The notes under the pieces are model-generated. The model had not been told where the DNA came from and did no database searches. It saw nothing but the letters and a program-made list of their open reading frames with translations. DNA of 22,831 nucleotides from the IMG/VR virus record IMGVR_UViG_3300036829_000074, positions 1 to 22,831 of that record. One strand, 5' to 3'. The stretch comes from a virus. Positions 3,659 through 17,086 of this stretch are shown piece after piece (within the stretch, counting starts at the first letter, position 1; the number at the start of each line of letters is the position of its first letter). Made by a program: the position numbers and the translations under genes.

Positions 3659-5194
3659 TCATGATTGCAGGGTGTACCCGCCGTACAGCCAACCATTTAC
3701 GCAGTACTCACCGATGATGCTCGCGGTCTTTCCCGAAGGGACGACGACCGCACTGGTGGCGTTGTCACTAGTACCTGTCCATCCGGAGAGAGTGACAGTT
3801 CGAGAACCACCGCTTGCGGTGATTTGTACGCGGTAGACGGCAAGTACGGCACCGTTAGCGGGCGCGTTCAGCGTGGTATCGCTACTCAGCGACGCGCAAG
3901 ACCCACCCTTGATCGCGCCGTTCTGCGCGTCCGGATTCAGCGTGGCCGAGTCGGCCAATGTCTCCACCTGACCGGACCAGGCCGGCGCTGGCGCGGGCAC
4001 CCATGACAAGCCAGTGGTCTGCGCCGAATCCGCAATCAATACTTGTGCATCGCTACCAACAGGAAGTCGCGCGACAGTACCCGACCCGGTGGCGGCGTAG
4101 AGATCCCCCACCGCCGCCACGGTAGCCAGATCCACCGCCCCGATAGCGCTGGGTGTTACCGCGTCACCGCCGCCGATGGCGTGTGTGGACGCGTGCACGT
4201 TCGGAGTTCTACTGTCACTCAGTCTGGTGTCGTTACCCGCCGCCGCCTGCACGGAAGTGGTACCCAGCGTGCGCAGCCCCGCCGTGGCGGCGGCTGGATC
4301 GATGAGCGCGGACGCGATCGCGCTAGCTCCGACCGCACCCGCCGCGATGGTGGGGTTCGGGTAGGTGCCCGACAAGGAGCCGGTGGCCGAACCAGTCGGA
4401 GTACGACTGTCGGACAGTCGCGAGTCGTTCCCGATCGTCACTGTGGTCGAGCTGGTGCCCGTCGGAAGCTGCGCGATCGGTACCTTCGTGCTGCCGTCCA
4501 AGCTCGCGTAGCCCGACGCCGCACCCTTGGCGGAGGTGTCCTGCTTGAGGTTGAGCGCGGTCTGCTGGGCGGTGCTGACGGGCTTCGCGGTGTCGGCGGT
4601 GTTGTCCACCGAGCCAAGTCCGACGTCGGACTTGGTCAGCCCGAGCGCGGTCTTCAGGGCGGCGTAGGTCTTGCTGATCCACCCCGAGCCATCAGCGGCC
4701 ATCACGTTGCCGGAGCCGGGCGTGAGCGCGGCGATGCCGGTGAGGTCGGAATCCAGCGGCTGCTTGGCGGCCAGGTGGGTCACCAGGCTGGTGACCTGCG
4801 ACTCCGCCACGGTCAGGTTCGCCTGGTTGACGATGACCGTCGGATTGATCGGGTCGGTGTTGTCGACGTGAATCGAGGTGTCCCCGGCGGTTACCGAGGA
4901 CACCCCGCCGGGCGCGGGATCCACCCAGGCCACGCCGAGCGTCGCCGACGAGTCGGCGGTGAGCACCTTACCGTCGGTGCCGACGGGCAGCGTCGACATG
5001 TCGGCGGCGGCGTGCGCCGCGATCATGTCGCCCTTCGCGGTGGCCAGCGCGTTGACGGCGCCGGCCGCCTCGATGGTGGTCGTCCTGCTGTCCAGCCCAT
5101 CGATCGCGGTGTTGTAGAGCGACAGGTTCTCCGCGTCGATCGGGTCGGAGGTGGTCGGGTCGTTCGTCCAGGAGGGCATCGGGTAGGTCGGCAT
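3659..5194 (-). CDS. Tail fibre protein (511 aa)
   Basis: A long fibre with repeats familiar from phage tail fibres. The N-terminal segment (YPMPSWTNDPTTSDPIDAEN, residues 4-23) resembles the virion-anchoring start of many actinophage fibres. The module LPVGTDGKVLTADSSATLGVAW (~69-90) recurs in degenerate form as LPVGSDAQVLIADSAQTTGLSW near the C-terminal third. VGLGSVDNTADTAKPVST (~191-208) is a widespread fibre repeat. NDSRLSDSRTP (~256-266) recurs once more downstream, and SGTYPNPTIA (~275-284) is another common fibre element. The last ~100 residues differ and probably form the receptor-contact head. It begins behind AAGGAG at ATG 5194. It lies between the 20-residue-repeat protein and the lyase, so it is part of the adhesion end of the operon. 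Confidence 0.8.
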   Translation of the reverse strand: MPTYPMPSWTNDPTTSDPIDAENLSLYNTAIDGLDSRTTTIEAAGAVNALATAKGDMIAAHAAADMSTLPVGTDGKVLTADSSATLGVAWVDPAPGGVSSVTAGDTSIHVDNTDPINPTVIVNQANLTVAESQVTSLVTHLAAKQPLDSDLTGIAALTPGSGNVMAADGSGWISKTYAALKTALGLTKSDVGLGSVDNTADTAKPVSTAQQTALNLKQDTSAKGAASGYASLDGSTKVPIAQLPTGTSSTTVTIGNDSRLSDSRTPTGSATGSLSGTYPNPTIAAGAVGASAIASALIDPAAATAGLRTLGTTSVQAAAGNDTRLSDSRTPNVHASTHAIGGGDAVTPSAIGAVDLATVAAVGDLYAATGSGTVARLPVGSDAQVLIADSAQTTGLSWVPAPAPAWSGQVETLADSATLNPDAQNGAIKGGSCASLSSDTTLNAPANGAVLAVYRVQITASGGSRTVTLSGWTGTSDNATSAVVVPSGKTASIIGEYCVNGWLYGGYTLQS

Positions 5195-5204
5195 TCAGCT
5201 CTCC

Positions 5205-8200
5205 TTAACGTCGCACTGGAGCCGGCTTACCGGCGTTGATGTCCGGCACTGGTGCCGCCCCCACGGCCCGGGGCGATCCGACGCACTGCGCGAGCTTCGC
5301 TCGCGGACTCTGTGCCTCGGTGGCGCACGCGGCGCTGATCGCGCCGAGCACGATCGCCTGGGCGGCCAGCACGCCCTGTTCGAGAGTGGGTGGGCCAGAG
5401 AACGCCTCCCACGGGCGCAGGTGTCCGGTGGCTGTCAGGACAGCTAGCGCACCCAGCACCGCCGAGGCGAAGGTGGTGTCGCGCGGCGCGACGGACACGC
5501 TGGAGTGCGCGGTCAGCACCGCGTTGACGACCACCGTGACGTGCTCGGTGGCGGTCAGGGAGGTGCTGGCCGAGAGCGCCGCGGTCAGAGGCACTCCATG
5601 GGTGGCCACAGCCTGTAGCGCCGCCGCGGCCGCGAGCACAGCCGCACCGTGATACACGATCGTGGCATTCGCCGACAACCCGGTGGTCTGCGCTAGATGT
5701 GCGGTGGGGAACACCGTGTCGCGCGGCTGTGCCGCCATGCCAGAGTGCGCGGCAAGGACGGCGGACGGACGCTGCGTGACGAACGCCGCCGAGGTCAGCT
5801 CCGTGGTGGCGGCCAACGTCGCGGACGGGTGCTGCGTAACGATCGCCGACGAGGTGAGCCCCGTAGTGGCGTGCAGCGCCGCCGCCGGCAACACCCTGAC
5901 GGACGCGGCCGCCACCAGCGAGCTGACCTCCGACAGCACCGCGTCGGCCGGCAGCGAGATGTCCGAGACCTCGACGCCCACCGTCGTGGCGGCGGTCAGG
6001 TGGGCGGTCGGCAACGTCGTAACAGACGCCGACGAGGCGAGCCCAGTGACGGCCGCCAGAGCGGCGGACGGACGCTGGTTGACCGCGGCCGCCGCAGTCA
6101 GTCCAGTGACCACGCTCAGATGCACGGTCGGGAGTTCGACAACGAACGCCGACGCGGACAGTCCAGCGACAGCCGCCAAGTGGGCGGATGGGAGCTGCGT
6201 GTCACGCGCGGCGGCGGTCAGCCCAGTGACGGCCGCCAGGGTGGCGGACGAGAACTTGGTGAGATGCGGCGCCACTGTCAGTGCAGTGACGGCCGACAAC
6301 GCGGCGTGCGGGAATTGCGTGTCGCGCGCGGTCACCGACAGCGCCGTGCTCGCCGTCAGCGCCGCCGCCGCTCGGGTGGTGTCTACCGGGGTGGTGGTCA
6401 GCCCGGTGACCGCATGCAGCGCCACCGCCGGGAACTCGGTGTCGTGAACCTGCCCCGACAGCGCCGCAGTGGCCGACAGAGCCACCTGCGGGAGCTGGGT
6501 GTCGTGCGCCGCCACTGTCAGAGCCGCGGTAGTCGCCAACGAGGCGGTCGGCAGGTGAACGCCGACCGCCGCCACCGTCAGAGCGGCGTGCGTCGCCAGT
6601 GTGGCGGTGGCGAACGTCGTGTCGCGTGCCACGGCCGCCAACGCGCTGACCGCCGATAGTGCTCCGGTGGGAAGCTCTGTGTCGGAGACCGAGGAGGTGA
6701 GCCCGGTGACCGCCGACAGCGTCGCCGTCGGCAGCTGCGTGTCGTGTACCGCGGCGGTCAGCGACGTGCTGACGCTGAACGCCGCACTGGGCAGAACGGT
6801 GTGCGTCGCCGCGACGGTCAAGTGCGCGGTCGCGGCGAGCGCACTTGAAACGGGGATCGTCTGAGCGGCGGAGACCGACAGCGCTGCCTGCGCCGACAGA
6901 GCCGCCACTGCCTGGGTGGTGTCCACCGGCACGGTGGTCAACCCGGTAGCCGCGGCCAGCGCCACCTGGGGCAGCGGGGTGACCGAAGCGGCGACCGTGA
7001 GCCCCGTGGAGGCACTCAGCGACGCGGTCACCACCTTGACCCGCGTCGCGTCCGCTGTGAGCCCCGTGGAGGCGCTCAGCGTGGCCGAGGCAAGGATGTG
7101 CCCACCGGCAGCCGTGACGGCCATCGCCGCGCTGGCGGCCAGGGTGGCGCTCGGGAAGATGTGGACCCAGGGACCGGTGGACGGGTAGAGAGTGCCGCTC
7201 GGGTACAGGTTCTGCCCGGGATACAGCGGATAGGGGCCGATGTCGATCTGAGACTGCCCCGCGAGCGTCGCGGACCCCGCGGGGCCACCGAGCGCCACCG
7301 AGGTCATCCCGGCGGTCGCCGACATGGTGACGGTGCCACCGTCCCGAACGGTGACGGCGACGGCGGACAGGTCAGTGGACGCGATCAGTGCGGCGGTGCC
7401 ACCGGTGACGTCGGTGGCGACCGAGGTCAACCCAGCGGTGGTACCGAGTGCCACCATCGGGAACGTCGTCACCGACAAATCGGTGGTCAACCCCGTGGGG
7501 GCCGACAACCCCGCCGTACCGAACTCGGTCGGCACCAGCGACAGGAGTGTGAGGCCGGACAGGTCCGCCGTCGGGAGTTCGATGACGAACGTCGCGGCGG
7601 TCAGCCCAGCGATGGCCGTTAGGGCACCAGTCGGAAGCTCCACGACCCCGGCGGCACTGGCCAGCCCAGTAGTGGCCGCCAGCGTCGCGGACGCGCTCCT
7701 GACGTCGATGGCGGTCGCCGCAAGCGCCGTGGAGGCGCTCAACGTAGCGACACCGCCGATGACATCGGTAGCTATCGGCGCCAGACCGGCGATACCTGGC
7801 AACGTCGCCGACGGGAGGACCGTCGGCGATGCGACCGCGGACAGACCCGTGCTGGCCGACAATGCCGCGTGCGGAACGTAGTTGACCGTGGCGACGCTGG
7901 TCAGCCCAGCGTTGACCGACAACGAGGCCGAGGCAGGGATGGCGTCGTACGCGGCGGCGATGAGCCCCGTCGTCGCACTGAGCGCAGCCACGGGGTGCTC
8001 AGTGTCGCTAGCGGCCGAAGAAAGCCCCGTAGTGGCCGCCAACGCCACGTGCGGGAGTTCGATGACCGATGCGGCAGCGGATAGGCCCGTGCTAGCCGAC
8101 AGCGCCGCGTGTGGGACGTAGTTGATCGTGGCAACACTGGCCAGCCCAGTGGAGGCCGACAGGGTGGCGTGCGGGAGCTGAGTGTCGAACGCCACCGCTG

Positions 8201-8366
8201 CCAGGCTGGTGGCTGCACTCAGGGCAGCGACGGGGCGTTCGGTGTCGAGCGCGACACTGACCAGTCCGGTGGTCGCGGAGAGAGTCGCCGCCGCGCTGAA
8301 AGTAGCGAAACCGTGCGGCCGCACCCACACGACGTACGCCGGAGTGCCCCTACCGAGACGCGCCAC
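5205..8366 (-). CDS. Giant ~20-residue repeat tail protein (1053 aa)
   Basis: After a 20-residue N-terminus, nearly the whole protein is a tandem array of about 47 imperfect 20-residue units. The consensus is roughly xAxLSAxTGLTxxAxDTxLP. I count about 17 units, then a Tyr/Pro/Gly-rich break at residues ~375-405 (the LYPGQ and LYPSG motifs), then about 29 more. The last ~70 residues are non-repetitive and start HLRPWEAFSG. The unit alternates small and hydrophobic residues with a turn at its end, as in beta-solenoids or stacked strands, which is inference. Similar Ala/Leu/Thr repeats and 'LYPG/LYPS' segments occur in actinophage tail proteins. GTG 8366 follows GAGAGGGG. No enzyme motif is visible; a structural fibre or surface-binding shaft is most likely. 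Confidence 0.75.
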   Translation of the reverse strand: MARLGRGTPAYVVWVRPHGFATFSAAATLSATTGLVSVALDTERPVAALSAATSLAAVAFDTQLPHATLSASTGLASVATINYVPHAALSASTGLSAAASVIELPHVALAATTGLSSAASDTEHPVAALSATTGLIAAAYDAIPASASLSVNAGLTSVATVNYVPHAALSASTGLSAVASPTVLPSATLPGIAGLAPIATDVIGGVATLSASTALAATAIDVRSASATLAATTGLASAAGVVELPTGALTAIAGLTAATFVIELPTADLSGLTLLSLVPTEFGTAGLSAPTGLTTDLSVTTFPMVALGTTAGLTSVATDVTGGTAALIASTDLSAVAVTVRDGGTVTMSATAGMTSVALGGPAGSATLAGQSQIDIGPYPLYPGQNLYPSGTLYPSTGPWVHIFPSATLAASAAMAVTAAGGHILASATLSASTGLTADATRVKVVTASLSASTGLTVAASVTPLPQVALAAATGLTTVPVDTTQAVAALSAQAALSVSAAQTIPVSSALAATAHLTVAATHTVLPSAAFSVSTSLTAAVHDTQLPTATLSAVTGLTSSVSDTELPTGALSAVSALAAVARDTTFATATLATHAALTVAAVGVHLPTASLATTAALTVAAHDTQLPQVALSATAALSGQVHDTEFPAVALHAVTGLTTTPVDTTRAAAALTASTALSVTARDTQFPHAALSAVTALTVAPHLTKFSSATLAAVTGLTAAARDTQLPSAHLAAVAGLSASAFVVELPTVHLSVVTGLTAAAAVNQRPSAALAAVTGLASSASVTTLPTAHLTAATTVGVEVSDISLPADAVLSEVSSLVAAASVRVLPAAALHATTGLTSSAIVTQHPSATLAATTELTSAAFVTQRPSAVLAAHSGMAAQPRDTVFPTAHLAQTTGLSANATIVYHGAAVLAAAAALQAVATHGVPLTAALSASTSLTATEHVTVVVNAVLTAHSSVSVAPRDTTFASAVLGALAVLTATGHLRPWEAFSGPPTLEQGVLAAQAIVLGAISAACATEAQSPRAKLAQCVGSPRAVGAAPVPDINAGKPAPVRR
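5411..8306 (-). repeat. Degenerate 60-bp tandem repeat array (coding)
   Basis: The DNA carries the same 60-base period as the 20-residue units, with recurrent blocks such as GTCAGCCCAGTGACGGCCGCC on the plus strand. Units vary at many positions, so this is an old, diverging array. It is interrupted at about 7152-7256 by the Tyr/Pro-rich connector. Shared blocks give scope for length change by unequal recombination. Confidence 0.75.
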
Positions 8367-10878: not shown

Positions 10879-11088
10879 TCAGCCCTTCTCGCTCATGATG
10901 TGATCGCGGAGGTCTTCCCCGCGCTTGCCGTCCGCGGCCTTCACGACGGGACCGCACAACTCGCACTCGGTGGCCATGGCGCAGCAGTCCATGTGCCCGT
11001 ACACCGAGACATACCCAGGCAAAATCCGTTCGTGCTTGGGGTGGTCGTCTTCCTGCTGGCAGTAAATGCACGTGCGCTTAACACTCAT
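10879..11088 (-). CDS. Small zinc-binding protein inside the tail operon (69 aa)
   Basis: The start at 11088 gives a 4-base ATGA overlap with the upstream gene; a longer frame exists but buries that gene and lacks the usual start. Cysteines and histidines lie in two knuckles: CIYCQQEDDHPKHE near residues 7-20, then HMDCCAMATECELC (about 32-45). Short actinophage proteins with a DDHPKH and HMDCC pattern are familiar beside tail genes. It probably binds one or two zinc ions. Whether it is structural, a chaperone or a regulator cannot be told from sequence. Confidence 0.75.
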   Translation of the reverse strand: MSVKRTCIYCQQEDDHPKHERILPGYVSVYGHMDCCAMATECELCGPVVKAADGKRGEDLRDHIMSEKG

Positions 11089-11480
11089 TGAGTAACCTCG
11101 GGGGAGACGGTGACGGAACCCATGGACACCCGCGATGTTCGCAATCCCACTGGAGCGGCGGGGTTGGTAAGCAGGATGTCGTAGGCGCCCTGGGTGAAAG
11201 CCCACGCCACTGACTCAGCGGCGAGAACCCGGATATTCAACGTGGTATCAGTGAGGGTGATCAGCCCCTGATCGGCGGTGGGACTCGTCGACCAGGTGAA
11301 GTAGGTTTCATCCGAACCTGGGAACGGGCGGATCTGACCCCGAGCGGAACAGCCAGCCAAGTCATACGGCTGTCCGTCAGGCCCGATGATCGGGTAGTTA
11401 ATCCCCGGCCAGTCGGCGGCTTGCGGGATGACGATATTGAAGGACAACACCCCGAGCCCGGACGGAGAACATTGCGTCAT
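11085..11480 (-). CDS. LtfC-like beta-sandwich baseplate protein (131 aa)
   Basis: The start overlaps the preceding stop by four bases (ATGA), as is typical of coupled tail genes. The order of elements is IVIPQAADWPG, DLAGCSARGQIRPFPGS, GLITLTDTTLNIRV, SVAWAFTQGAYDILLT and a final VSMGSVTVSPEVTQ. It fits the small beta-sandwich proteins (LtfC/BppU-N-like) used by siphophages to attach tail-tip parts, with the usual 'GRVxVSPEVT' ending. A linker role between hub and receptor-binding proteins is inferred from the family and its place right after the OB-fold-like protein. Confidence 0.65.
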   Translation of the reverse strand: MTQCSPSGLGVLSFNIVIPQAADWPGINYPIIGPDGQPYDLAGCSARGQIRPFPGSDETYFTWSTSPTADQGLITLTDTTLNIRVLAAESVAWAFTQGAYDILLTNPAAPVGLRTSRVSMGSVTVSPEVTQ

Positions 11481-11788
11481 GATGGAATAACGATGTTCGT
11501 CGGGTTTACCTGCTGGCCCATCACCATGACATCAGTACCGAAGTGCTGCAGCCACACCGTGTGCCCCTCGGCGGGCGGGTTGGACGCCGAATATGTCTGC
11601 AGGAAGGTCACACCGGGGATTACTAGTCCGCTCGGGTCGTTGTACTCGAAGTCAACGATCCCGTTATACAGGTCGACGTTGCCAATCTGGCCCAAGTGCA
11701 TAGACACCCGTTGGTCGCGCGGGACCCAAGCCGTCGAAGTGCCGCCGCGCTTAATATTGCGGGCCAGCCGAGAAATAGCAGCGTCCAT
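11477..11788 (-). CDS. OB-fold-like baseplate protein (103 aa)
   Basis: ATG 11788 is preferred over GTG 11794 because AAGGAG is five bases before it and overlaps the GTG. AAGGAG also overlaps the hub stop (TAA). The protein has a basic N-terminal helix (SRLARNIKRG). Short strands follow: TSTAWVPRDQRVSMHL, NVDLYNGI, GVTFLQTYS, then GHTVWLQHFGTDVMVMGQQV. The late 'GDxVWxxxxGxDxxVLG' pattern is typical of actinophage proteins encoded just after the DUF5047 hub and is compatible with an OB-like fold. Its role is probably an upper-baseplate ring. Confidence 0.65.
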   Translation of the reverse strand: MDAAISRLARNIKRGGTSTAWVPRDQRVSMHLGQIGNVDLYNGIVDFEYNDPSGLVIPGVTFLQTYSASNPPAEGHTVWLQHFGTDVMVMGQQVNPTNIVIPS

Positions 11789-11797
11789 ACCCACTCC

Positions 11798-13126
11798 TTA
11801 CTTGGTGGACTGACGGAAGCACACAAGCTGCTGCGGATCAGCGGAGGACAGTGACGTAGTCATGGAATTGATCATGTAGTTTCCATCCACGTTCACATTC
11901 CCGATCTTAATTTTGATAATGTCCCCCGGCTCCAACGCGGGGTGGGGAACCACGGTCATCGTGGCCGTGTCGGATGCTCCGAGGGAGTTATTGAGAATCG
12001 CGTTAGCGGCATCTTGCGCCTGGTCAGCGGTCGTAATAAGCGAAAATGTCAATCGCTCCGACACCTGCCCGTAAGGCCCAAGAATGTAAGTCGGGGAGTT
12101 CGGGTTGTTATCGAAGGCTTCCGCGTTGACCGCGTTCGCCGAGGAAGTTGACTGACCGATGACAACGATATGGTTGAACGTCTGCTCGTCACTCAGCTCC
12201 CGGGAAACCTCCGAGACCAACGGGTTCGAGTCCTCATCGAATACCCACACCGGGTCACCGGTAGTCGGATCCGGCACCGGCCGGAAGACGAATACGCCCG
12301 ATGGATCGAAGTACGCCTCAAATCCGATCGCGGCCGCCAGCTCCATGATGTCTTGCCACGGGTCGCCACCCTGGTTCATCCCATAGACGACGACATCGGG
12401 CAGTACGCGTGTGGTAGAAGAAAGAGAGAAGTCTTTCTGTGACGGCAGCCTGTTCAACACCATAGCCTTAGCGGCGTCGGCGTAGTTCAGGCCCGCTACC
12501 AGCGTGTACGGCTCCTGCCAGACATTTCTCTTGATAGCCCGGCTTAGGTCGGTGACATGTACGATGATGGAGGTAGCGCCCCCGGTTTGTCCGCCACCCT
12601 TTCCAATGACGCCGCTCGACGACGGGGCACTCGTGGAACTACCCGACCCTGAAGATCCAGCGACGGATTTGACGGTGACCTTGTCGATCATGCCGTGACC
12701 CAACGGAACGATCTCGTCGGTGCTCGCATCCAGGGAGACACTCATCTCGAACGAGGTGACTTTCGGGGGTGTGGTCCCCGCCGTCAGACGCGTCAGGGTG
12801 ATTCGAGTCAGCACAAACCGCGTCGTCGTATCGCCCTCGTACAGCCGCGCGACCGGGAAGTTGTTTGTCGCCAGGTCCCAGCTCGCGCCGTTGTTGATGC
12901 TGGTCTCGACCGTGAGCGTCGTGTTCGCCGGCACCGTTGCGTTCCAGCGCACCACCGAAGCGGTCACCGGGGTACCGGGCAACAGCAGTGGATCACTGAC
13001 CCAGTACCCGAACAAGGTGTTGTAGGCCGGCCCTCCGCTATCGATCTCACTAGCGGGGCCGATGGCGAAGGTGCTGGCGGTCGAGAGACTGGGGGTGATC
13101 ACCGCGGCGGTATCGGTCTCGGCCAT
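11798..13126 (-). CDS. DUF5047-like tail hub, C-terminal part (442 aa)
   Basis: Residues ~1-150 look like the discoidin-like beta domain often inserted in actinophage hubs (NATVPANTTLTVETSINNGA, then a run ending FEMSVS). From about residue 150 it resumes the hub body: VPLGHGMIDKVTV, a Gly/Ser-rich linker, SRAIKRNVWQEPYTLVAGLNYADA, and WQDIMELAAAIGFEAYFDPSGVFVFRPVPDP. Then follow a VSRELSDEQTFNHIVVIG strand, NNPNSPTYILGPYG and EPGDIIKIKIGN. The SRA...N(Y/Y)xxA, AIGxExYFD and NNPxSPTYxxGPYG blocks are the usual second half of a DUF5047 protein. The matching first half is missing here and lies at 14982-15368. It starts three bases after the preceding stop with no good ribosome site, so it depends on coupling. 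Confidence 0.75.
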   Translation of the reverse strand: MAETDTAAVITPSLSTASTFAIGPASEIDSGGPAYNTLFGYWVSDPLLLPGTPVTASVVRWNATVPANTTLTVETSINNGASWDLATNNFPVARLYEGDTTTRFVLTRITLTRLTAGTTPPKVTSFEMSVSLDASTDEIVPLGHGMIDKVTVKSVAGSSGSGSSTSAPSSSGVIGKGGGQTGGATSIIVHVTDLSRAIKRNVWQEPYTLVAGLNYADAAKAMVLNRLPSQKDFSLSSTTRVLPDVVVYGMNQGGDPWQDIMELAAAIGFEAYFDPSGVFVFRPVPDPTTGDPVWVFDEDSNPLVSEVSRELSDEQTFNHIVVIGQSTSSANAVNAEAFDNNPNSPTYILGPYGQVSERLTFSLITTADQAQDAANAILNNSLGASDTATMTVVPHPALEPGDIIKIKIGNVNVDGNYMINSMTTSLSSADPQQLVCFRQSTK

Positions 13127-13129
13127 GAC

Positions 13130-13579
13130 TCAGGCCGCCGTAGCGATCGTGGTGACGGTACCGGTGAGGTTCCCGCCCGCTGTCGTCGTACTGAAATCAT
13201 GTTTGGTCATTGGAATGATCGCGGAGTCCGCCGAGCCCGACGTCGGGCGGTAGCACGTCAGAAGTGCGCCGAGGGTGTTGTTCACCGCACCTCCGGCCGA
13301 GTTCCACACCAGGTTGCCGGTCAAGGCGACGGTCACGGTGGTCGTCGTGGTGATAGTGATGTTGCCGCTGGCCAAGATGATGCGCGCGTAGTTCGTGAAA
13401 GTCGCCTCATCACTAGTGGCCGCTAACAAGGTGGCCAGGTTCGTGTAGCCGGCGAGCGTGGCGTCCGCTTGAAGGCCGGAGGACAGAAGCAGTACCACGA
13501 CAATGTTGTCGCTGCCGGTCAGCAGTGAATACTTCTCGACGAATCGACCCTTTGCGCACGGGAAAACAAAATTTGCCAC
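13130..13579 (-). CDS. Actinophage virion-associated beta protein (149 aa)
   Basis: GTG 13579 is chosen because relatives, as I recall, begin with a short (V/M)ANxVFxxAKGR segment. A GTG at 13609 would add ten residues unlike the family. The TTGGA ribosome site seven bases upstream is weak. Recognisable blocks are FPCAKGRFVEKYSLL, VVLLLSSGLQADATLAGYTN, SDEATFTNYARIIL, NLVWNSAGGAVNNTLGALL and SADSAIIPMTKHDFSTTTAGGN. The family is common in actinophage structural modules, probably as a tail or virion decoration. Here it is the last of three genes lying between the two hub parts. Confidence 0.75.
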   Translation of the reverse strand: MANFVFPCAKGRFVEKYSLLTGSDNIVVVLLLSSGLQADATLAGYTNLATLLAATSDEATFTNYARIILASGNITITTTTTVTVALTGNLVWNSAGGAVNNTLGALLTCYRPTSGSADSAIIPMTKHDFSTTTAGGNLTGTVTTIATAA

Positions 13580-13662
13580 GAAGCATCCAATCAGTGCTAA
13601 CGGGTACACGAGAAAGCAATAATCACTTCGAGCGAGGGAGCGTAATACAGCACGTGGGTAAG

Positions 13663-14415
13663 CTACGCCGCTCCTACCGCCACGGAAGCATCAGCGCCCG
13701 GAGTCAAAAATGCATAAAGACCCGTGTACGCCGGAGCGCCCTGTGCAGTCGGGAACGCCACTGATCCAGTTGACCCCGAAGTAGAATACGACTTTCCCAC
13801 CACCACGATGCTCGGGTTCGTGTCGTATTGATAGAAATGCGCCCCCGACTTGTCGGTTGCAACCATGGCTGTCCATCCAGTCGGGACACCCATGGACACC
13901 GGCCAAGCCGGCCACGCGCTACCGCCGGGCGGCAGCGCCACGCTTCCCCCGAACATGACCATCGTTCCGGCATTCGGCACTGTCACCGAACTGACCGTGA
14001 CGGTCGTAGCACCCTCAACCTGAGAGAACGACAACGACCCCGCCGCAGGAGTAGTACTGGGGCTAACCCCACGAACAGTTAGGAGCCCAAACATGAAATG
14101 ACGCCACGACGCGGGCTTGACCCACGCGATCGAAGTGTCCGCATCCCCCGACACGAGTCGACGGTAATAGACCCCGTGAGTGTCGTGCCCGACGTTCCTC
14201 GTATACGCAGCGGTAAAGGTAGTCGGTGGGTCGGGGTACATGACCATTTCCAGGGCGGTATCGCTACCCGAGTCAGACCCAGAACCAGTAACGAACACCA
14301 GTCGAATATCGTTCGGCTGCCAGTTTGGCCCAAGAGTTACGGGCAGCGGCTCCCTGTATCCGCCAGGCGGGGTGACTGACACGCTCATGTCTAAAAACTG
14401 GATCTGTGCCGCCAC
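13663..14415 (-). CDS. Beta-sandwich minor tail protein (250 aa)
   Basis: GTG 14415 follows AAGGAGGGG, a near-ideal ribosome site. The blocks QPNDIRLVFVTGSG, GVYYRRLVSGDADTSIAW, HFMFGLLTVRGVSP, TVTVSSVTVPNAGTMVMFGG and PTGWTAMVATD follow the same order as the adhesin-like family at 8860 and 9682. The similarity is structural rather than close. The protein ends in LYAFLTPGADA, matching the late 'AFLTPA' strand of that family. Probably a surface-exposed tail-tip decoration. It is the middle gene of the block lying within the hub. Confidence 0.6.
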   Translation of the reverse strand: MAAQIQFLDMSVSVTPPGGYREPLPVTLGPNWQPNDIRLVFVTGSGSDSGSDTALEMVMYPDPPTTFTAAYTRNVGHDTHGVYYRRLVSGDADTSIAWVKPASWRHFMFGLLTVRGVSPSTTPAAGSLSFSQVEGATTVTVSSVTVPNAGTMVMFGGSVALPPGGSAWPAWPVSMGVPTGWTAMVATDKSGAHFYQYDTNPSIVVVGKSYSTSGSTGSVAFPTAQGAPAYTGLYAFLTPGADASVAVGAA

Positions 14416-14440
14416 TATCTACCCCTCCTTGTCGAGGCCA

Positions 14441-14935
14441 CTAGGCGGCCCAGTCGAGTCGCAGTTCTTCAAAATATATGGTGGGCAAGATGGCGTAGGT
14501 GGGGGTGGCGGTGGCGTTGCCAACCCAGCCATTCGTATAAAACGCTTCACCGGGGCGTAGTGTGACATCAAGTGGGGGCTGATAAATCTGGGTGTCGGAG
14601 CCGTAGCCGCTGCCACCCGTACCTAGAGTTTGCAGGGTTACTACAGTTCCTGAAAATGTCACCGAGCCGTTTTGCGCCGCCGTTGCGGATGCGGCTGGCG
14701 CGCCCGAGCGCAGCGGAGTTGGAATCATCGCGCTACCGCCCGACATGGTGGCACCCGCCACCCTGTTGACGTACCAAGAAATGGCGAAAGTGTTAGTGTC
14801 GGGATAGTAATGAAATATAGTGTAATGAACACTGTTAATGCGTATCGAGTAGATGCCAGCCTTAAGGCCCATGAACCCACCGACTGTCGAGCCACCGCCC
14901 AGGGGGGGAGTACCGTTTAATGCGTATGCGGTCAT
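14441..14935 (-). CDS. Jelly-roll-like minor tail protein (164 aa)
   Basis: ATG 14935 follows GGAGGAAGG. The first half (MGLKAGIYSIRINSVHYTI, FHYYPDTNTFAISWYVNRVA) has alternating Tyr/Ile/Phe strands. The second half has PTPLRSGAPAASATAA, then LRPGEAFYTNGW and a final strand FEELRLDWAA. The second half follows the layout of the 8391-8846 protein. This gene is visibly richer in A and T than its neighbours, especially in the codons at 14780-14850, which hints at a more recent arrival. It is the first of the three genes between the hub parts. Function: virion surface protein, inferred. Confidence 0.6.
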   Translation of the reverse strand: MTAYALNGTPPLGGGSTVGGFMGLKAGIYSIRINSVHYTIFHYYPDTNTFAISWYVNRVAGATMSGGSAMIPTPLRSGAPAASATAAQNGSVTFSGTVVTLQTLGTGGSGYGSDTQIYQPPLDVTLRPGEAFYTNGWVGNATATPTYAILPTIYFEELRLDWAA

Positions 14936-14981
14936 GTATAGCTACCTTCCTCCCGTCTGGACTCGGCCATAAAGGCGTTGA

Positions 14982-15368
14982 TCACGGACCTAGCGTGAGA
15001 CCACCGTCAGTGTCGATTTTCACGCCGTTCATCACCCCCGTCGGAGTCAACGGAGTCCATGGATTCGCCGCACCGTAGGAAGCGGTCACTATCTCAGTGC
15101 TCTTAATCCGCACCCCCCGCCATACCTGCATACGCGTACCGAAGGGGGCGAGCTGCGACGTCATTCCCAGCGGAGTGAGGACCTTATTCGGATCACTGAC
15201 TTCTACCTGGATACTACGCATCAGCGCAGCGGTTCGATCCGCCGTCACGATGCCAGCATGTACCTGGAGATACTCTACGACTTTACCGTTCTGAATAACG
15301 TCAACTCGGGAAACAGCGGTATGAGGCTTCCGCGCGGTGGCGTCAAAATCCGGAGTACGTCCTTGCAT
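14982..15368 (-). CDS. DUF5047-like tail hub, N-terminal part (128 aa)
   Basis: ATG 15368 is preferred: CAGGGA lies six bases upstream, it starts 17 bases after the previous stop, and it gives the usual family N-terminus. An ATG at 15440 would overlap the upstream gene by 55 bases. The protein reads PHTAVSRVDVIQNGKVVEYL, then AGIVTADRTAALMRSIQVEV, then a turn DPNKVLTPLG, and APFGTRMQVWRGVR. These are the first ~110 residues of DUF5047 proteins, the hub or Tal-like proteins of actinophage tails. After an ANPWTPLTPTGV segment it stops (TGGLTLGP-type end), just where the family normally continues into its inserted beta domain. The continuation is encoded separately at 11798-13126. Confidence 0.75.
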   Translation of the reverse strand: MQGRTPDFDATARKPHTAVSRVDVIQNGKVVEYLQVHAGIVTADRTAALMRSIQVEVSDPNKVLTPLGMTSQLAPFGTRMQVWRGVRIKSTEIVTASYGAANPWTPLTPTGVMNGVKIDTDGGLTLGP

Positions 15369-15385
15369 CAGCAGTCCCTGTCCGG

Positions 15386-17056
15386 CTAGAAGTAATCGGG
15401 TACACGCGTCTGCGTCATTGTCAATTTCCGCCGACGCCATTGGACCCTCGTGGGCACCCCCGGCAGCGCGTTGTAGTTCTCCGTGGTGTCCTGGCCGCTG
15501 GCGCCCGGACCCAGGGCGACCCACACCTGCGACCCATCTGGCTTCTGCAACAGCAGCGTGCCGCCCGTGCGGTCCAGCTCATCCACGATGGGCCAGACGT
15601 TTGTCAGGTCATCCAGCTCGAAGAACAGCTCGATCTCGTACTCATCGCCGTGTGTCGGACCCCCGACAATGAACGGCAACGCCTCCGACCCGTCGCTGCC
15701 GAGCGGGAAGAACGTACCCATCGTGCGGCGCTTGGTGACCTTGATTCCGGTGTCGCTCTTCGAGACCGCGACCGGTAGTGGCGTGTTAAGCAACGGATTG
15801 CTCGGGTTCTTCAGCCAGTGCTTGTCTCCCGTCGGGGTCACCGACAGGACATTCGAAGGAGCTTGCGCCGCCACCAGTACCGTCCCGCTGTAGGCGATGA
15901 CTCGATATTGGCTAATAACATTCAGCGGCGCCGTGTACTCGTACACCGTAAGGGGAGTCATTCCGTTCGCCGACAGATACGAGAGACTCGGAATCGCGGT
16001 CCAGCTCGTGCCGTTGTCCCGAGACGCCTGCACCAAGAACGCGGTCGTCGCCGGAGTGGTACCCCCCGGCTCGAACACGAGCTGCACCCGGTTGTTGGTC
16101 ACGTCGAACACCGCGCTGTCCAACACCGCGGCGGGCGGAGGACTCGCGGGAGTGGCCAGACGTGTCCAGGTCGTCGAGGAGACCGCCGTCGGGAAAGAAC
16201 CCGACCCCGACCACTGCGAGAACGCTTGAACGTATGCGGAGTAGGTACCGTCCGTGAGGTCGCTGGTAAGCGTCCACGACAAGCTCTCGCCCAGGGTGAC
16301 CCCCGAGGTCTGGATCGGGACCGTGACGAACGGCGCGAACCCGAGACTGGCCACCTGGGCGGCGGTGTACACCGCGACGTTGGAGGCCGCCTGAGGCTGC
16401 GAATCCGGGCTCGCGTAGGTCCAGGTCACCGTGGGACGCGTTGAACTGACGGTGCCCGTTGGCCCGGTGACAGTGATCGAACTGGCCTGCTGGTAGGTGA
16501 TGTCCAGGTAGACCGCACTCACGCTCAACGTGGTGGTAGTGCTGGCGTCATCACGCCCGATGTCGTAGGTCAGCCCCACTAGGTTGGTCGTGGGGTCCCA
16601 CGGCTGCCCCCCCGGCCCTGTGAGGAACGTCCCGAGGTTCTCTTCGATCCACACCGGAACAGTCGGGGCGGTTGGAGGAGAGGTAGGGCAGTTGCTGTTA
16701 AAGAAGTACTTCAGGATGTCCTGGACCTGCCCGGCGATGGAGATAGTGCCGGTCACCGACCGGAGCCAGTGGTTGCACACCGGAATAGTGGGAGCAGGAG
16801 TGGACGCGACCTGCGTAAAAGTCCTGCGACGAAGTCCTACCGAATAAACCTTGGCGCCAGCGGGAATGGTCGGCGTCGGGAAACCGACCCGCAAAACCTG
16901 CGAGTCCAGCCGACACAATCCATTTATAGAAATGTAGGTAGCGTCAGAGTTATCGGCCAACACCGTACTCGCGGAACCGGCACCCGTGATAGTGACACCC
17001 GTACCTGCTTGAGGCGTACTGTTCGGCCGGAGAACTGAGACCGTCAGAGCAGCCAT
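15386..17056 (-). CDS. Minor tail protein with Ig/FnIII domains, Dit-like position (556 aa)
   Basis: ATG 17056 follows AAGGAGG at four bases; a TTG at 17059 is too close to it. Residues ~1-185 form an all-beta N-terminal domain. At ~190-300 an Ig-like domain has SITVTGPTGTVSSTRPTVTW. At ~310-415 an FnIII-like domain has NRVQLVFEPGG, FLVQASRDNGTSWTAI and ISQYRVIAYSG. The last ~140 residues begin KHWLKNPSNPLLN and contain a charged ELFFELDDL patch. The KHWLK(D/N)PxNPxLN block occurs in minor tail proteins of actinophages. Being the first gene after the tape measure, it corresponds in position to distal tail proteins, but its size and FnIII domains point to a larger tail-tip protein. Confidence 0.7.
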   Translation of the reverse strand: MAALTVSVLRPNSTPQAGTGVTITGAGSASTVLADNSDATYISINGLCRLDSQVLRVGFPTPTIPAGAKVYSVGLRRRTFTQVASTPAPTIPVCNHWLRSVTGTISIAGQVQDILKYFFNSNCPTSPPTAPTVPVWIEENLGTFLTGPGGQPWDPTTNLVGLTYDIGRDDASTTTTLSVSAVYLDITYQQASSITVTGPTGTVSSTRPTVTWTYASPDSQPQAASNVAVYTAAQVASLGFAPFVTVPIQTSGVTLGESLSWTLTSDLTDGTYSAYVQAFSQWSGSGSFPTAVSSTTWTRLATPASPPPAAVLDSAVFDVTNNRVQLVFEPGGTTPATTAFLVQASRDNGTSWTAIPSLSYLSANGMTPLTVYEYTAPLNVISQYRVIAYSGTVLVAAQAPSNVLSVTPTGDKHWLKNPSNPLLNTPLPVAVSKSDTGIKVTKRRTMGTFFPLGSDGSEALPFIVGGPTHGDEYEIELFFELDDLTNVWPIVDELDRTGGTLLLQKPDGSQVWVALGPGASGQDTTENYNALPGVPTRVQWRRRKLTMTQTRVPDYF

Positions 17057-17086
17057 CAAGCCTCCTTATAAAGTTGATAGACCAGG

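Follow-up and report, generated by a model that had tools for sequence, protein, structure and literature searches.

Tail hubs of related phages and the locus analysed

The tail hub closes the tail tube of a phage and carries its tip. The DUF5047/phrog_177-type hubs (Shagrat gp23, Samy SAMYPH_23, VWB gp49 and AbbeyMikolon gp18) are homologous over domain 1 and the body to the hub described here. Each is one chain of about 365-375 aa whose gene, in these actinophages, stands in the same locus order, after the tape measure and distal-tail-position genes, and, unlike the split hub, it has neither a jelly-roll insert nor intervening genes. Longer hubs occur in Gordonia phages GMA7 and Woes and in Rhodococcus phages ReqiDocB7 and Trogglehumper; by eye, they carry an extra domain near the same domain 1 hairpin, but the inserted domain (about 190 aa) differs from that of the split hub, and the gene consists of a single open frame. 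In hubs of about 580 aa from Gordonia and Rhodococcus phages (L029 2511-4250, L032 2382-4127 and L033 2331-4070), the domain of about 190 aa near this hairpin, again placed by eye, is possibly Rossmann-like. The domain-1 hairpin is suggested to be a hot spot for insertion.

The window analysed here, 22,831 bases in full, is a single viral record (IMGVR_UViG_3300036829_000074) in which the tail genes, and all features given below for it, lie on the minus strand. Its hub genes follow the tape measure gene (21362-17124) and a distal-tail-position gene (15386-17059), which is where DUF5047-type hubs are placed. The latter gene is named by position and is a conserved neighbour in relatives; it had no phrog match and only a sub-threshold match in Pfam. 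Downstream of the hub, another conserved neighbour (11477-11794) takes the position of the small post-hub gene of Samy and Shagrat, and its product has marginal similarity to Samy gp24 (E 0.03). Elsewhere in the window, 5205-8366 encodes a 1053-aa protein made almost entirely of imperfect repeats of about 20 residues (ALSASTGLTSVA...), probably a fibre-like tail protein, and 10470-10874 matches Pfam Gp80 (Podophage GP4 fiber I protein gp80; E 2e-14). A small HNH-like protein (CSVCG ... VDHVDP; Pfam HNH match sub-threshold) is encoded at 934-1359, far from the hub break.

Two open reading frames correspond to one hub gene

The original prediction described a tail hub gene in two halves with three tail genes between them, these three in the same direction and with starts of their own, and we found all five open reading frames on the minus strand: the front part, hub-N (14982-15368, 128 aa), three intervening genes (14441-14935, 164 aa; 13663-14415, 250 aa; 13130-13579, 149 aa) and the back part, hub-C (11798-13126, 442 aa). 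The start of 13130-13579 is an internal ATG, the longest open frame beginning at 13609.

When we searched annotated phages with tblastn, hub-N and hub-C fell on the same single gene in the Rhodococcus phages Shagrat, Madraxi, REQ1 and Jflix2 and in Streptomyces phage Samy, where that gene is annotated as a baseplate hub protein. We then used hhalign to align both parts with a profile built from 19 intact hubs, each about 365 aa long and with a DUF5047 match. Hub-N occupied columns 1-88 (E 4e-16) and hub-C columns 89-349 (E 2e-43), values that rule out chance as an explanation. The two sets of columns abut with neither overlap nor gap, and the junction lies just after the strand 'WRGVR(I)'.

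In Pfam, hub-N has a weak DUF5047 match over positions 1-50 (E 0.06), its score of 14.1 being below the curated cut-off of 25, and hub-C has no DUF5047 match. The DUF5047 match of intact hubs spans their residues 39-166, and the lack of any single protein with an above-cut-off match is what would be expected if the domain is divided. Hub-C matches positions 375-644 of the 670 in phrog_1887, 'tail protein' (E 5e-48), as well as phrog_177, 'baseplate hub', and Pfam Phage-tail_3. The claims that 14982-15368 encodes the first part of a DUF5047-type hub and that 11798-13126 begins in the middle of the same architecture are thus both borne out, and the uninterrupted counterpart that the prediction proposed to look for exists as the DUF5047 hub of Shagrat, Samy and VWB. 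By sequence homology, the two products correspond to the front and back portions of a single tail-hub protein; the split hub is a DUF5047-type hub over domain 1 and the body, and, being encoded by two open reading frames, is not a single polypeptide.

The break probably lies within a jelly-roll-like domain

When we compared the split hub with an intact one, we found 38 extra residues at the end of hub-N and about 134 at the start of hub-C. Hub-N residues 1-90 (15099-15368) make up the opening portion of hub domain 1 and extend to the strand 'MQVWRGVRI', as bounded by hhalign, and residues 91-128 (14985-15098) form a tail that is conserved in our 14-sequence alignment of hub-N. It ends in (N)GVKIDTDGGLTLGP in the window, and complete hub-N parts of the deep relatives have variants of this motif such as NNGTIGDPVSGALILGWT. 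Hub-C opens with a linker (residues 1-32; 13031-13126) that holds two ETDTA-type repeats and was delimited by alignment with fused relatives. Residues 33-134 (12725-13030), from AYNTLFGYWVSDPLLLPG onward, make up a beta-rich stretch absent from hubs of about 365 aa, and residues 135-442 (11801-12724) comprise the strands that end hub domain 1 (STDEIVPLGHGMIDKV) together with the remaining hub, according to hhalign and the Phage-tail_3 match.

A protein of Moorella phage MTATph1, unrelated to the hub, has a repeated domain similar to the jelly-roll-like stretch of hub-C. By eye, this protein has an A-strand motif resembling the hub-N tail ahead of its equivalent of GYWVSDP, and one copy of the domain holds another domain in the same loop. 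On the strength of this domain order and motif resemblance, the hub-N tail would be strand A, and the start of hub-C strand B onward, of one jelly-roll-like domain. The break would then be nested, the gene being interrupted in the first loop of a jelly-roll-like domain that is itself carried on a loop of hub domain 1. A single query made up of the hub-N tail followed by the hub-C jelly roll found no uninterrupted copy; it returned the MTATph1 match, which hub-C alone also finds, and one weak match in an E. coli phage.

The AlphaFold2 models of the hub parts, built from shallow alignments of 13-14 sequences, were poor (mean pLDDT 53 and 50), with residues 50-110 of hub-C beta-rich at a pLDDT of about 70-82. 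With the low-confidence hub-C model, Foldseek placed 3D37, 3CDD, the lambda tip and VgrG at the top and Mu gp44 lower, at low TM-scores; we take these likenesses to solved hubs and related tip proteins as no more than supporting. No meaningful match came from Foldseek with the hub-N model, as might be expected of half a domain. Searches of PDB sequences with the alignments of hub-N and of hub-C brought no meaningful match, and the same search with intact hubs gave a sub-significant match to 3D37 only.

Both parts are conserved, and the genes between them are reshuffled

The split was seen, at the same protein position, in all 20 IMG/VR contigs (the window included) in which both parts are visible, and two more contigs showed hub-N only. 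All split members are metagenomic contigs, and their carriers are a family of uncultured, actinophage-like viruses. Both parts are kept in the 20 contigs down to about 40% identity. In about 60 further loci the hub is uninterrupted or, in five cases, lies in two overlapping frames, and a profile search of genome contigs with the hub-C alignment found no prophage relative. A counterpart of about 128 residues in many phages had been named as evidence against a split gene; such a protein does exist, yet it is confined to the split lineage and always lies upstream of hub-C.

In a maximum-likelihood tree of the hub back part (84 hubs, of which 19 are split and 65 fused), the split hubs form one group (support 98/75) and a single change accounts for the distribution, consistent with a single origin of the split. 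The tree is unrooted, and the wide occurrence of single-chain hubs points to the fused hub as the ancestral state. In comparisons with the two nearest relatives, dN/dS (Nei-Gojobori) was near 0.05 for both hub-N and hub-C, and it was about 0.1 against a third relative (L009), where synonymous sites are near saturation. Judged by these ratios, both parts are under strong purifying selection, which, together with their retention in 20 contigs, backs the proposal that the halves are still working.

The distance between the halves ranges from 468 to 2897 bases among the 20 contigs, and a stand-alone hub-C mostly starts 0-4 bases after the preceding stop. A gene of the 13130 family (phrog_26662, E 4e-24 in the window) lies between the halves in 20 of the 21 contigs examined and has homologues in the structural regions of Hiyaa and Pam4; a gene or domain of the 13663 family was found there in at least 19 of the 21. 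Genes of the 14441 family are restricted to the window's clade, where they are sometimes duplicated, and gave no matches in cultured phages. The gene at 14441 had been described as richer in A/T, which needs a minor correction: its GC content is 56.8%, against 57.1% for hub-N and 64.6% for the window, and in this it does not stand out distinctly. The order of the intervening genes, 14441-13663-13130 in the window, is 13663-14441-14441-13130 in L007 and L008, 14441-13130-13663 in L015, L019 and L021, 13130-14441-13663 in L018 and 13130-13663-14441 in L016, L022 and L052.

In L011, L013 and L017 and in the deep relatives L054, L055, L058 and L059, the 13663 domain is fused in frame to hub-C through ETDTA repeats, which places the domain at the hub in these seven cases. 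The intervening proteins would sit on the hub also where they are separate chains. Two further genes occur between the hub halves in one relative each, a weakly sulfotransferase-like gene in L008 (6384-6902) and a 2OG-Fe(II) oxygenase-like gene in L021 (8159-8779). L057, the most divergent split relative, lacks the 13130 and 13663 families in the gap, and its hub-C frame (4753-7122) starts with a long Ala-rich repeat region that by eye is like the repeats at 5205-8366 in the window. The intervening sequences that we searched had no Pfam or Rfam match to a mobile element or homing endonuclease.

A candidate frameshift after domain 1 in related hubs

In seven related hub loci (L075 5480-6567, on the same contig as L127; L083/L123; L081/L130; L084/L128; L071/L125; L124; and L126), a conserved GGGAAAA slippery heptamer (CAGGGAAAAGCCTSGAGG) in the X XXY YYZ register closely follows domain 1 of an otherwise intact hub. 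The rest of the hub is encoded in the -1 frame, while frame 0 ends soon afterwards in some loci and later in others; the frame 0 open frame is 123 aa in L126 and in L127. From its sequence, this looks like a candidate programmed -1 frameshift in the tail hub gene, leading to a domain-1-only product. If true, it would be a second, independent route to hub domain 1 as a separate chain.

Origin of the split hub and alternative explanations

We consider it very probable that a siphophage-type tail hub gene underwent insertional fission long ago and that two chains now complete hub domain 1. The prediction of a tail-module block inserted in a hub gene agrees with the intact gene in relatives, the complementary open reading frames and the tail genes between them, but is refined in one respect, as the break would fall in a jelly-roll loop and not in plain hub sequence. 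We found no intact hub with the same jelly roll, and we therefore infer the order of insertion and splitting. The jelly-roll-like domain would have entered domain 1 of the hub at the hairpin that follows the 'WRGVRI' strand, at about the place where phages such as GMA7 and ReqiDocB7 have a different domain. A 13130-family gene together with a 13663-type domain and ETDTA repeats would then have entered the A-B loop of the jelly roll, which would explain why hub-N stops after strand A and hub-C opens with new domains. The gene content of the deepest relatives suggests that this first block consisted of the 13130-family gene and a 13663-like domain fused to the back half, and that 14441 and the shuffling came later; in the window's clade, by comparison, the 13663 domain would have become mostly a separate gene, 14441 been added and the order changed.

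In such a virus hub-N and hub-C would be translated separately and meet in the assembling tail tip. Hub-N would contribute the opening strands of domain 1 and, through its tail, the strand A that completes the jelly roll of hub-C; hub-C would supply the remainder. The two chains, physically paired, would together close domain 1, and the hub would be a hetero-oligomer with the intervening proteins near the break. It is conceivable, though we hold it only tentatively, that the break serves as a permanent docking site where exchangeable surface proteins, separate or fused to hub-C, are built in at the jelly-roll loop and swapped as modules by gene shuffling.

Split genes in phages often prove to contain introns or inteins, as in ribonucleotide reductase genes (PMC3653736), and the two pieces might be rejoined as one chain in this way or by ribosomal bypass or read-through. 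However, no intron family was found at 11000-16000 (Rfam) and no intein family in Pfam, and merely 38 aa follow the front part of the hub. The stop codons vary (TGA, TAG, TAA), as does the length of the gap, the frame relation between hub-N and hub-C takes all three values among the 20 contigs, and in several relatives hub-C opens with an extra domain of some 200-350 aa. We therefore reject an intron, an intein or read-through; the pieces are seemingly not rejoined at the RNA or protein level, and rejoining of any kind is extremely improbable. An assembly chimera or one-off recombinant might be suspected in a window that is one 22.8-kb record, but 19 other contigs, drawn from several IMG/VR datasets, share the arrangement, which refutes a chimera and leaves such readings with next to no probability.

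The distance of up to 2.9 kb between the halves would also suit a hub-N that is a decaying or non-essential remnant, hub-C alone being a shortened hub in which the jelly roll replaces domain 1. That is very unlikely: all 20 contigs have kept hub-N, its length hardly varies, its tail is conserved and it is under purifying selection, and hub-C retains the closing strands of domain 1, for which the opening strands are needed. Separate roles for the two products, with hub-N a stand-alone ring or adaptor derived from hub domain 1 and hub-C the hub, would find a parallel in the separate domain-1 polypeptide indicated by the frameshift-type site in the seven related loci. Only pieces that complement each other would be expected to conserve both a jelly-roll-like tail on hub-N and strands of domain 1 in hub-C, which makes separate roles very unlikely.

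Comparison with known cases of gene fission

In the phages compared the hub is one chain; in this virus, two chains seem to make up what is elsewhere a single-chain part. A stable two-chain form reveals a place at which the hub withstands being broken and offers a natural split point for work on modular tail tips in laboratory phages. Hub-N will probably be labelled a 'hypothetical protein' and hub-C a 'minor tail protein' by annotation pipelines, and such hubs may be overlooked. A limited search of the open-licence literature returned no split tail hub, DUF5047 tail or tail-protein gene fission, which is weak evidence of absence.

From its sequence features, namely an intact homologue, complementary pieces and genes between them, the history of the hub gene is closest to insertional gene fission, and it is a case of such fission in a structural gene whose gap holds no intron, intein or endonuclease that we could detect. 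In the genes-in-pieces ribonucleotide reductase of Aeromonas phage Aeh1 (nrdA; Friedrich et al. 2007, as cited in PMC5374615 and PMC3322345), inserted DNA likewise splits a gene of which both pieces are kept, and, according to the title of that study, function is retained. A homing endonuclease is reported as the cause there, and the gene affected is that of an enzyme, whereas the split hub is a structural protein with tail genes inserted and no endonuclease found in the gap. A mitochondrial cox2 gene offers the other parallel: a gene cluster inserted in one gene gave two complementary genes, as in the split hub (PMC5374615). The cox2 fission is mitochondrial and evolutionarily recent, whereas the hub split is old in its clade and the genes inserted in it have been reshuffled.
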